DNA of 64,000 nt from Paracoccaceae bacterium (GCA_009773375.1 WRPH01000001.1:62001-126000), one strand, 5' to 3'. Numbered from the stretch's first letter, positions 9,308-57,088 are shown. Program-made: numbers and translations. The notes: generated by a model not told the origin, from the sequence alone.

Positions 9308-9380
9308 GTTAACGCATCGTGAAGCCGAGCATGTAACCCTATGATTCATATAGGCCCCAACTTTTGTCCACGTGCGGACA
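9308..9380 (-). repeat. composite intergenic element copy A (16-bp motif + 51 nt + GTTAAC)
   Basis: 9365-9380 TGTCCACGTGCGGACA and GTTAAC 9308-9313. Confidence 0.6.
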
Positions 9381-9456
9381 CGCCCCGCCCGTGACGCGGC
9401 GTTTCCCGTGACAGGTCGTCAACGACAGGGCATCCTTGCCCGAACAGGAGTTTGCC

Positions 9457-11457
9457 ATGCCCTACCCAAACCTGCTTGCCCCGCTCGATCTGGGCCACAT
9501 CACCCTGAAAAACCGCGTCTTGATGGGGTCGATGCATACCGGGCTGGAAGAAACCGGCGACTGGAACCGCGTGGCGGAGTTTTACGCCAGCCGCGCCCGT
9601 GGCGGGGTCGGCCTGATGGTGACAGGCGGGATGGCACCTAACCGCGAGGGCGGCGTTTTCCCCGGTGCGGCGGGGCTGTTTTCCGACGCCGATATCCAGA
9701 ACCAACGGCTGGTGACGGATCGGGTCCATCAGGCGGGCGGCCGGATCGCAATGCAAATCCTGCACGCGGGCCGCTATGCCTATTCGAAAGACTGCGTGTC
9801 CGCCTCGGCCGTGAAGTCGCCAATTTCGCCATTCCCGCCGACCGCGCTGGACGAGGCCGGGATTGAAAAGCAGATCACCGACATCGTCACCGCAGCGACC
9901 CGCGCAAAACTGGCAGGCTATGATGGGGTAGAGGTGATGGGGTCGGAGGGCTACTTCCTGAACCAGTTCCTCGTCACCCACGTCAACCGCCGGACGGATC
10001 GCTGGGGTGGCAGCTATGAAAACCGGATGCGCCTGCCGGTCGAAGTGGTCCGCAGGGTCCGCGCCGCTGTCGGGACGGATTTCATCGTCATCTACCGGAT
10101 CAGCCTGATCGACCTGATCCCGAACGGCTCCAACTGGGATGAGGTGGTCTTGCTGGCCAAAGCGATAGAGGCGGCCGGGGCAAGCCTGCTGAACACCGGC
10201 ATCGGCTGGCATGAGGCCCGCGTGCCCACCATCGCCACCTCGGTCCCCCGCGCCGCCTTCGCCCACCTGACCGCCCGCCTGCGGCCCGAGGTTTCGATTC
10301 CGGTGATCACCTCGAACAGGATCAACACGCCCGAACTGGCCGAGGCCCTGCTGGCAGACCGGGCAGCGGATATGGTGTCAATGGCCCGCCCGTTCCTCGC
10401 CGACCCGGATTTCGTGGCGAAGGCCGCGTCTGGCCACGCCGCCGAAATCGCCCCCTGCATTGCCTGCAATCAGGCCTGTCTGGACCATACCTTTTCGGGC
10501 AAGCTGACCAGCTGTCTGGTCAACCCCCGCGCCTGCCACGAAACGCTCCTGAATTTTGATCAGGCGGCTGTCAGGAAATCTCTGGCCGTGGTGGGGGCGG
10601 GTCCGGCCGGGATGATGGCGGCGCTGGTCGCGGCCAAGCGGGGGCATCGGGTGGTTCTGTTTGACAAGACGGATCAGTTGGGCGGACAGCTGAACCTCGC
10701 CAAGCTGGTGCCGGGGAAAGAAGAGTTCCACGGGCTGGTCGATTGGTTCGCAGCCTCCGTCACGGCGGCGGGGATTGAAACCCGGCTGGGCGGCACCGTT
10801 GGTGTGGAGGATCTGCGCGATTTTGATGAGGTGATCGTCGCAACCGGCGTCATCCCGCGCGATCCCGGCATTCCGGGGCAAGAGCAGGCGCTTTCCTATC
10901 TGGAGGTGCTGCGCGGCGCGCCGGTGGGACAGCAGGTCGCGGTGATCGGGGCGGGCGGGATCGGCTTTGACGTGGCGGAATATCTGGTCGCGGGCGGGCA
11001 CTCCGTTACCGCCGATCCGGCGGCATGGCGGCGCGAGTGGGGGGTGGGAGATCCGGCGCAGGTGGCGGGTGGGTTGGTGGAACCTGCTCCTGTTGCCCCC
11101 GCGCGGCAGGTTTGGCTGTTGCAACGCAAGCCTGAAAAGCCGGGCAGGGGTTTGGGGAAAACGACCGGCTGGATCCACCGGGCCGCGTTGCAGATGAAGG
11201 GCGTAAAGATGCTGGGCGGCGTCAGCTATCTGGAAATCAGCGCCGAAGGCCTGCGGATTTCCCGCGATGGGGTCGAGGAAACTCTGCCGGTTGATACGGT
11301 GGTCCTGTGCGCGGGGCAGGTCCCCGCGCGCGGCTTGGCCGATCAATTGGCCACTGCAGGGATAGCGGCGCATGTGATCGGAGGGGCGGATGTTGCGGCG
11401 GAACTGGATGCGAAACGGGCGATAGATCAGGCGGCTCGGCTGGCCGCGCGGCTATGA
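9457..11457 (+). CDS. fadH: 2,4-dienoyl-CoA reductase / Old-yellow-enzyme FMN-FAD oxidoreductase
   Basis: N-term OYE TIM barrel, [24 protein letters not shown] FeS cluster, C-term FAD/NAD domain. Confidence 0.85.
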
Positions 11458-11580
11458 TGCCCACATGCGGACAGAATGTATTGTTATTGTTTTCATATAG
11501 TTATCTGACGGCATTTACCAGCTGTTAACACCTTGGCCCAGCAAGTGAGAGGTAGGGTGCGTGCTGGCACGCACCGCACC
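11458..11580 (+). repeat. composite intergenic element copy B
   Basis: 11458-11473 TGCCCACATGCGGACA, 50 nt, GTTAAC 11524-11529, then AGGTAGGGTGCGTGCTGGCACGCACC. Confidence 0.7.
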
Positions 11581-54574: not shown

Positions 54575-55843
54575 TCAGCCGTTCTCGCGCAAAACCCCGC
54601 CCGCCAGATACAGTGAGCCGCAGATCAGCACCCGTGCCTGCGGGCTGACCGCTGCAATCGCCGCCAAAGCCTGCGCCACCGAAGCGGCCGTCACCGCATC
54701 GATGCCGACACTGGCCGCCGCATCGCGGGTCACCTCGGCGGGCAGCGTGTTCCTCTCACCGGGGATCGACACCGCATGCAGCCGCGTCACATGCGGTGCC
54801 AGCGGCTCCATATAACCGCGCACATCCTTGGTGTTCAGCATGCCGCAGATCAGGTGCGTCTCGCGCACCGGCATCCGCGCCAAGGTCGCCGCAACCGCAG
54901 CCCCCCCCGCCGGGTTATGCCCGCCATCCAGCCACAGCTCCACCCCCGGCGCGCTTTCCACCAGTGGCCCGACCCGCAACCGCTGCATCCGCGCGGGCCA
55001 AACCGCCTGCGTCACCGCCGCCTCGCACGCGGCCTGATCCTTGCCCAGCGCCCGCAACGCCGCAATCGCAGCCCCGGCGTTCTGTATCTGGAACGGCCCC
55101 GGCAGGTTCGGCAACGGCAGATCCAGCAACCCGTTCTCATCCTGATAGATCAGCCGCCCACGCTCTTCCCAGGCGCTCCACTGCTGACCATAGGCCAACA
55201 CCGGGCAGCCCAGCCGCGCCGCCCGCGCCTCGATCACCTCAAGCCCGACAGGTTCTTGCGGGCCAATCACACAAGGCACACCGCGCTTCAAAATCCCGGC
55301 CTTTTCGGCAGCAATCTCGGCCAAAGTCTCACCCAGATATTGCTGATGATCGATCGACACCGGCGTGATCACCGTCAGCACGGGCTTCTCGACCACATTG
55401 GTCGCATCCAGCCGTCCGCCCAAACCAACCTCAAGCAACGTGTAATCCGCCTTCGCGCGGCTAAACGCCAGAAACGCCGCACAAGTGGTAATCTCGAAAA
55501 ACGTGATCTCCTCCGGCCCATTCGCCAGCACACATTCATCCAGCAACGCCGTCAGCGCCGGTTCCGAAATCAGCTCGCCCGCCAAACGAATCCGCTCATG
55601 AAACCGCGCCAGATGCGGCGAGGTATAGGCATGCACCCGCGACCCGCCCGCCTCCAGCCCCGCCCGGATCATCGCCTGCGTGCTGCCCTTGCCATTGGTC
55701 CCGGCGATATGGATCACCGGCGGCAAAGACCGCTCCGGGTGGCCCAAGGCCGCCAGCAGGCGCTCAACCCGGTCCATCACCAGATCGATCACCTTTGGAT
55801 GCAGCGTCATCATCCGATCCAGAACGGCGTCAGACCCGCTCAT
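54575..55843 (-). CDS. folC: bifunctional folylpolyglutamate/dihydrofolate synthase
   Basis: VIHIAGTNGKGSTQAMIRAGLEAGGSRVHAYTSPHLARFHERI. Confidence 0.95.
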   Translation of the reverse strand: MSGSDAVLDRMMTLHPKVIDLVMDRVERLLAALGHPERSLPPVIHIAGTNGKGSTQAMIRAGLEAGGSRVHAYTSPHLARFHERIRLAGELISEPALTALLDECVLANGPEEITFFEITTCAAFLAFSRAKADYTLLEVGLGGRLDATNVVEKPVLTVITPVSIDHQQYLGETLAEIAAEKAGILKRGVPCVIGPQEPVGLEVIEARAARLGCPVLAYGQQWSAWEERGRLIYQDENGLLDLPLPNLPGPFQIQNAGAAIAALRALGKDQAACEAAVTQAVWPARMQRLRVGPLVESAPGVELWLDGGHNPAGGAAVAATLARMPVRETHLICGMLNTKDVRGYMEPLAPHVTRLHAVSIPGERNTLPAEVTRDAAASVGIDAVTAASVAQALAAIAAVSPQARVLICGSLYLAGGVLRENG

Positions 55844-56745
55844 GCCTTCGCCTCAAGGATCTCCCCCGGCGGCGGCAAATCGCCCATGATCGCCGGCGAT
55901 TGGTTCATCAGCATGCGCAGAATCGTCACCAGTTCCATCCGCAGGTTCTTGCGATGTGTCACCCGGTCCAACATGCCGTGATCCAGCAGATATTCGGCAC
56001 GCTGGAAACCTTCCGGCAGCTTTTCCCGAATGGTCTGCTCAATCACCCGCGGCCCGGCAAAACAGATCAGCGCGTTCGGCTCGGCAATCTGCACATCGCC
56101 CAGCATGGCGTAAGACGCCGTCACGCCGCCGGTCGTCGGATGCGTCAGCACCACCACATAGGGTAGCCCCGCCTCTTTCAGCATCTGCACCGCCACCGTG
56201 GTGCGCGGCATCTGCATCAGCGACAGAATACCTTCCTGCATGCGCGCGCCCCCGGCGGCGGAAAACAGCACCAGCGGCTTTTTGGTCTTCACCGCACGTT
56301 CAGCCGCCGCGATCAGCGCATTGCCGACATACATGCCCATAGAGCCAGCCATAAAGCTGAAATCCTGCGCCACGGCGATGATCGGGGTGCGGCCAACCTC
56401 GCCTTCCGCCACCAGCATCGCCTCACGCTCGCCAGTCGATTTCTGCGCGGCTTTCAGCCGTTCTGGGTATTTCTTCTGATCGCGGAAATGCAACGGGTCC
56501 ACCACCGGATCGGGCACCTTCACCTCGACGAAAACGCCGGTGTCAAACAGCCCGGTAAAGCGATCACGCGGGCTGATCGCCATGTGATGATCGCAAGAGG
56601 TGCAAACATTCAGGTTCGCCGCCAATTCGCGGTGAAACAGCATCGTGCCGCATTCCGGGCATTTCGTCCAAAGATTCTCCGGCACCTCGCGGCGCGAGAA
56701 CAGCGAATTGATCTTCGGGCGGACGTAGTTCGAAATCCAGTTCAT
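55840..56745 (-). CDS. accD: acetyl-CoA carboxylase carboxyltransferase subunit beta
   Basis: ENLWTKCPECGTMLFHRELAANLNVCTSCDHHMAISPRDRF. Confidence 0.97.
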   Translation of the reverse strand: MNWISNYVRPKINSLFSRREVPENLWTKCPECGTMLFHRELAANLNVCTSCDHHMAISPRDRFTGLFDTGVFVEVKVPDPVVDPLHFRDQKKYPERLKAAQKSTGEREAMLVAEGEVGRTPIIAVAQDFSFMAGSMGMYVGNALIAAAERAVKTKKPLVLFSAAGGARMQEGILSLMQMPRTTVAVQMLKEAGLPYVVVLTHPTTGGVTASYAMLGDVQIAEPNALICFAGPRVIEQTIREKLPEGFQRAEYLLDHGMLDRVTHRKNLRMELVTILRMLMNQSPAIMGDLPPPGEILEAKA

Positions 56746-56926
56746 GCGCGTGCTGGCCTATGGTCGCTGCGGTTGGCGTTCAGATAAGCCGAAGGGCCGG
56801 AAATTGCAATCACAGCCAACGGCCATCGGCCATGCCCAGCCACGCGCGCGCTTCATCTTGGCAAAAATACTCCCCGCGGAGCGTCGATCTGCACCACAGG
56901 TGCCCAAGCGCGCAGGATCAACACGC

Positions 56927-57088
56927 AGGTAGGGTGCGTGCTTGCACGCACCGCTGGCCAGCCCAACAAAGGTGCGTGAGATCACGCACCCTACCTCTTT
57001 CGAATGGCCGAAAAAGTTAACAAACTCCTACCACGGCAGCGCAAGCCCTTGATTTCCCATCAACAGACCACCTGTCCACACGCGGACA
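56927..57088 (-). repeat. composite intergenic element copy C
   Basis: 57073-57088 TGTCCACACGCGGACA, 51 nt, GTTAAC 57016-57021, then double hairpin 56927-56996 with 14-bp perfect outer arms. Confidence 0.75.

Follow-up and report, generated by a model that had tools for sequence, protein, structure and literature searches.

Three sites in a window of 64,000 nucleotides from a Paracoccaceae bacterium, the whole stretch of DNA that was analysed, are occurrences of a single repetitive extragenic element, about 82 bp long. Comparison of genome sequences establishes the family and its anatomy, its copy number and placement, the re-use of the same places, the exchange of heads and the presence or absence of units. 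The best reading, to which we give a probability of about 0.6, is that of a repetitive extragenic element bent by IHF, which sits at the edges of transcription units and would work like the RIB (BIME-1) repeats. An initial annotation of the window had described the sites as a palindrome followed after 50 or 51 nt by GTTAAC, and had proposed a dispersed repeat family whose layout was suggestive of bound proteins. Its coordinates and spacings for the three copies (A, B and C) were all correct on rechecking, and the proposal is supported by the genome-wide family and the fixed spacing.

Structure of the element

The anatomy was derived from 51 sites aligned by orientation alone and then from 89 sites of four genomes. 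Read head first, the element consists of a palindromic head of 16-17 nt, about 20 nt of spacer, the core WATCAANNNNTTR, a further 10-11 nt, the boxes TTMAC-N5-KTTAAS and a final TTTG. In positions of the covariance model, the head occupies 1-16 and is followed by a variable G-rich stretch, an AT-rich stretch at 27-35 and WATCAANNNNTTR at about 35-47; in the tail, TTMAC lies at 58-62 and, after five bases, KTTAAS at 68-73 and then TTTG. The core equals the published IHF consensus and is a predicted IHF site, and the AT-rich stretch lies 5′ of it, a feature that known IHF sites share. Exact WATCAANNNNTTR occurs at the expected offset in 24 of the 51 sites and never at 457 other offsets, and a relaxed match is present at the same single offset in 40 of the 51. 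The tail boxes stand at core+23 or core+24 in 302 of 313 elements (207 and 95, respectively), and these two spacer lengths explain why the gap measures either 50 or 51 nt. The description of that gap as not conserved was wrong, since it carries the IHF-type core and the TTMAC box, and it is because the gap holds this site and second box that the spacing is constant. The idea of GTTAAC as a fixed exact motif was likewise not borne out; it is one form of the KTTAAS end box, and by itself it is not enriched in the window (5 found, 3.3 expected). No terminal inverted repeats were seen in the element alignment, and no GTAG tag is conserved before or after the head in the 51-site alignment.

The covariance model (R1) and a profile of the tail agree on exactly three copies in the window, at 66, 58 and 45 bits, the tail profile finding copies A, B and C only and nothing in the reversed-window control. 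Copy A (9299..9380, minus strand, model positions 1-82; 57.6 bits, E 1.1e-14) has the head TGTCCGCACGTGGACA (9365..9380, minus), at a distance of 76 nt from the neighbouring gene's start codon, an IHF-type core AATCATAGGGTTA (9334..9346, minus) with one mismatch to WATCAANNNNTTR, the TTMAC box as TTCAC (9319..9323, minus) and the KTTAAS box as GTTAAC (9308..9313, minus), 51 nt from the head. It lies in the divergent gap between an old-yellow-enzyme gene (plus strand, start about 9457) and a GH3 glycosidase gene (minus strand, start 9226), both named from Pfam. Copy B (11458..11538, plus strand; 45.4 bits, E 3.2e-11) begins directly 3′ of the stop codon of the old-yellow-enzyme gene (TGA, 11455-11457), with 0 nt between, and a convergent glutathione peroxidase gene (Pfam) comes next. 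Its head is TGCCCACATGCGGACA (11458..11473, plus), its core the weak match TTTCATATAGTTA (11491..11503, plus) and its boxes TTTAC (11514..11518, plus) and GTTAAC (11524..11529, plus), with a gap of 50 nt to the head. Copy C (57007..57088, minus strand; 66.3 bits, E 3.4e-17) starts 6 nt past the stop of a radical SAM gene of the MiaB/RimO type (57095-58450, minus; Pfam) and has the head TGTCCGCGTGTGGACA (57073..57088, minus), the commonest form in the window's genome, the core AATCAAGGGCTTG (57042..57054, minus), which is exact WATCAANNNNTTR, a degenerate TTMAC box (GTAGG) and GTTAAC (57016..57021, minus) after a gap of 51 nt.

A third block, AGGTAGGGTGCGTG, had been reported 20 and 19 nt past GTTAAC in copies B and C; the distances hold, but the block does not belong to the element, being a separate REP of the GTAG type that stands beside some element copies only. 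In the window this GTAG-tagged REP, of the GTAGGGTGCGTG-CTTG-CACGCACC type, lies at 11550-11563 (plus) and 56927-56996, as a single unit at copy B and an inverted pair at copy C, and it is also found close to several other element copies in the genome (for example at loci L013, L031 and L041). Beside copy A, at 9381-9456 and in the orthologous loci L372-L385, nearly all genus members, whether or not they have the element there, conserve a block GTCAC-N3-AAACGCSGCGTCACG ahead of the old-yellow-enzyme gene, for which it is probably a promoter or operator.

Abundance and distribution

The family size of three given by the initial annotation was too low, as a search of the window's genome with the element's covariance model gives about 90 full copies at E<=1e-3 among the matches listed, higher counts being inflated by palindromes scored on both strands. 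Exact copies of the head palindrome number 39 in the 3.7 Mb genome, as against 0 for a control pattern; with up to two mismatches there are 76 places (control, 20). Among 51 genome sites with the palindrome at 0-1 mismatch, GTTAAC follows 48-53 nt away 11 times, as against 2 at 594 other offsets; the pattern thus has a preferred spacing and extends beyond the three places of the window. By the covariance model, many other Rhodobacteraceae carry from 20 to at least 150 copies per genome. In a survey at genus level about ten of 15 genomes had the element and five were at background, and at family level 19 of 199 genera had a match, about nine of them many; carriers include Cypionkella aquatica, C. 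psychrotolerans, Tabrizicola, Pseudorhodobacter and Antarctobacter. An Rfam search of the window returned two tRNAs only and no RNA-family match at the element, and a search of viral contigs gave no match to it. The tails of the Antarctobacter loci L185-L286 have a long near-identical stretch, ATCAATGGGTTACAGAGACGNNTTTAC, in common, which suggests that this genome recently went through a burst of copying.

Position relative to genes

Placement was scored with gene calls from a simple codon-usage finder, on loci many of which had been picked by an exact head pattern, and is written as two signs, which give in head-first reading the strand of the gene on the head side and that of the gene on the tail side. 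The 292 elements comprise 73 ++, 132 +-, 54 -- and 33 -+ placements, and the comparison set, gaps of at least 100 bp elsewhere in the same loci, comprises 101 ++, 44 +-, 101 -- and 149 -+. The tally of intergenic bias, distance to stop codons and strand that had been proposed with the initial annotation gave convergent gaps enriched (OR 6.6, p 4e-24), divergent gaps depleted (OR 0.21, p 1e-15) and heads close to stop codons. The head faces a stop codon in 205 of the 292 elements; in tandem (++) pairs it starts at a median of 5 nt past the stop and within 15 nt in 61 of 73, tails come within 15 nt of the next gene in only 6 of 73, and uniform placement within the intergenic gap is rejected. In divergent gaps with a gene start on the head side, the distance from head to start codon is 57-109 nt (10th to 90th percentile). 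Copy A is of this divergent, head-to-start type, and copies B and C are of the stop-codon type. About 30% of the elements (the 54 -- and 33 -+ placements) are not downstream of a gene in the head-first direction.

This placement bears on a chromosome-organising or segregation signal, similar to parS/Noc or KOPS, which would be palindromic and dispersed in the same way and could occur in about 60 to at least 150 copies per genome, as the element does. Such a role is very improbable, as placement follows gene ends and, along the single-contig genome G214, neither replication polarity nor even spacing was seen: the spacing is random (CV 0.95) and the strands are mixed in both arms, which GC skew places only roughly.

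Exchangeable heads

In several genera the tail is constant while the head differs between genomes. The head classes include the TGTCCACGCGTGGACA type and GGTCCCAACTCGGGACC; TGTCGCAC-N-GTGCGACA in G006 and G002; TGTCGCACGCGTGCGACA and TGTCCCGGGCCGGGACA in G012; GGTCCCAACGCGGGACC, with a T-run, in G003; and, across further carriers, CGTCCCACGATGGGACG, TGTCCCACGATGGGACA, CGTCCGAGCTCGGACG and TGCCCACGCGTGGGCA. Uniformity of heads within a genome is a tendency only, as two classes coexist in the window's genome, where at least 12 copies have a GGTCCC-type head, most with a T-run after it. In Tabrizicola (L191, L244, L253 and L284) the tail often has an extra TGTGGACGTT, a further half-head, soon after the IHF-type core, and GTCCACAGTGG units stand ahead of some heads.

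Heads 0-15 nt past stop codons recall transcription terminators, in which the head would be an intrinsic terminator hairpin and the IHF complex a roadblock; the GGTCCC class has a folding energy of -11.5 kcal/mol and in most cases a T4-T7 run behind the head, as in G003, and those cases fit this description. A terminator role is nevertheless rather unlikely. The common head class of the window's genome has a T-run in only 2 of 34 cases, and the G003 T-run is also found at heads that no gene end precedes (7 of 7) and therefore belongs to the element; moreover, the 30% of elements noted above have the wrong orientation for a terminator, and separate terminators precede some heads.

Genome G006 has 16 symmetric TGTCGCAC-N-GTGCGACA heads together with five that mix two half-site types, four of the five reading TGTCCGTC-N-GTGCGACA on one strand or the other, and the mixed heads lose the RNA hairpin (-2.3 versus -9 kcal/mol). 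These mixed half-sites speak for recognition of the head as DNA by a dimer, at least in G006. The strand asymmetry of the head (G-T 30, A-C 7 at positions 6/11) was considered as proof of an RNA hairpin and dropped, because it does not change at heads into which no gene runs and because the mixed half-sites of G006 break the hairpin. The likeness of TGT-N10-ACA to sigma-54 enhancers and to parS was also dropped, as other head classes do not fit.

Recognition by a dimer raises the possibility, which we regard as tentative, that the element is the operator, used together with IHF, of a dimeric regulator with a specificity that shifts from lineage to lineage, the heads at fixed places being replaced accordingly. 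Heads that are largely uniform within a genome and different between genomes, 41 orthologous pairs with different head classes, and the hairpin-destroying mixed heads of G006 would all be expected of such an operator. Most copies, however, lie at 3′ ends or between convergent genes and not at promoters, two head classes occur in one genome, the half-site spacing differs by 1-2 bp between classes, and no candidate head-binding protein was identified.

Occupancy in related species

Among 88 cross-species pairs with the same flanking gene end, head classes differ in the 41 already mentioned. The place of copy B is filled at the same stop, by elements with heads of several kinds, in G001, G003, G005, G006 and G009, and is without the element in G002, G004 and G014, two convergent stop codons abutting in G004. 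The place of copy A is filled in G001, G005 and G006, decayed in G009 and represented by a tail-like remnant in G004, and copy C occurs in the window's genome only, among the genus members compared, a result that weakened an early estimate that nearly all places are common to species. Empty sites exist in relatives, some of them clean. From the filled, empty and changed-head states at A, B and C it follows that places are long kept, that units are gained or lost whole, and that heads are changed in place or re-acquired. Orthologous spacers are nearly unalignable, and their similarity hardly exceeds that between the spacers of unrelated copies (0.377 versus 0.344), so that the same place may have been reached by independent arrivals. 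Near the copy A place in C. aquatica (L375, G007) there are instead two CTGTCCC-N-GCGGGGACAG-like palindromes, apparently another repeat.

Gain and loss of discrete units, as in the solitary copy C and the missing copy B of G004, G014 and G002, the patchy spread over genera (19 of 199) and the avoidance of divergent gaps are what a non-autonomous REP- or MITE-like mobile repeat would produce if it had no host function, were copied by some enzyme, were tolerated outside genes and promoters and used its IHF site for its own movement. This explanation is possible but less likely than the preferred one: tolerance alone would not lead one to expect the head/tail asymmetry at stops (61 of 73 versus 6 of 73 within 15 nt), several species use the same gene ends, and neither inverted termini nor, in the window's genome or C. 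aquatica, a match to a RAYT (Y1_Tnp) was seen. For the latter, PF01797 (Y1 transposase, RAYT) had no match in the window's genome (G000, 92.7% complete) or in G007 and weak ones in 3 of 15 genomes.

Comparison with known repeats

The CtrA box is TTAA-N7-TTAA, and the element has the same spacing in TTWA (58-61)-N7-TTAA (69-72); it differs in that many copies have TTCAC or TTCAG on the left, and in its position at gene ends. According to the title of Boccard and Prentki (1993), as cited in PMC12306157, RIBs bind IHF and sit at 3′ ends of transcription units; the BIME-1 repeats of E. coli are described in PMC2817692. The element resembles the RIB/RIP (BIME-1) repeats of E. coli in being repetitive and extragenic, in its IHF site beside a palindrome, in its location at 3′ ends of transcription units and in its mosaic make-up. 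In contrast, RIB/BIME-1 has two inverted REPs around the IHF site, whereas the Rhodobacteraceae element has one palindrome and, on the other side, TTMAC-N5-KTTAAS; no sequence relation between them was seen, and the heads of the element are exchangeable between and within genomes. By this analogy, the element would work like a RIB but is not a member of that group.

REPs that lie within 15 nt of a stop codon cause ribosomes to stall (PMC12306157), and the element shares with these E. coli repeats a hairpin-forming palindrome no more than 15 nt from the stop, but its head is without a GTAG tag, no RAYT was found, and an IHF site and tail are attached. The CGTC-tagged REPs of Alphaproteobacteria have a tag unpaired outside the stem, AT pairs next to the tag and a CCA tail (PMC3733652). 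They too are alphaproteobacterial palindromic repeats without a dedicated transposase, and some element heads start with CGTC or TGTC; in the element, however, YGTC is part of the palindrome and not an unpaired tag.

Proposed role and significance

In order, the alternatives are a mobile repeat that serves no function, the operator of a regulator, a terminator and a chromosome-organising signal, the first two being compatible with the preferred reading of an IHF-bent element at transcription-unit edges. Under the preferred reading, IHF would bind the core and bend the DNA sharply, and the bend would bring a partner bound at the head close to the TTMAC and TTAAS boxes. The resulting complex would mark the edge of a transcription unit, either just past a stop codon or just upstream of a promoter with the head towards the gene, and might limit transcription leaving the unit or absorb torsion; as RNA, the head could form a hairpin right after the stop codon. 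The element would be copied and lost as a unit by some enzyme, many copies then being kept in place. A more speculative and less probable extension is that of a modular boundary element with a constant IHF/TTAAS scaffold, in which lineages would replace the head "dialect" at dozens of fixed gene ends as its DNA-binding partner changes, the head marking the outer edge of transcription units.

Enterobacterial gene-end repeats bearing IHF sites have been known for decades and their function is not settled; a search of the literature found no description of a family of IHF-site gene-end repeats in Rhodobacteraceae. The same places with different palindromes, full or empty, are natural experiments on the roles of the palindrome and of the IHF site, and the exchange of heads together with filled and empty places offers a way to approach the enzyme or binding protein that underlies repeats of this kind.
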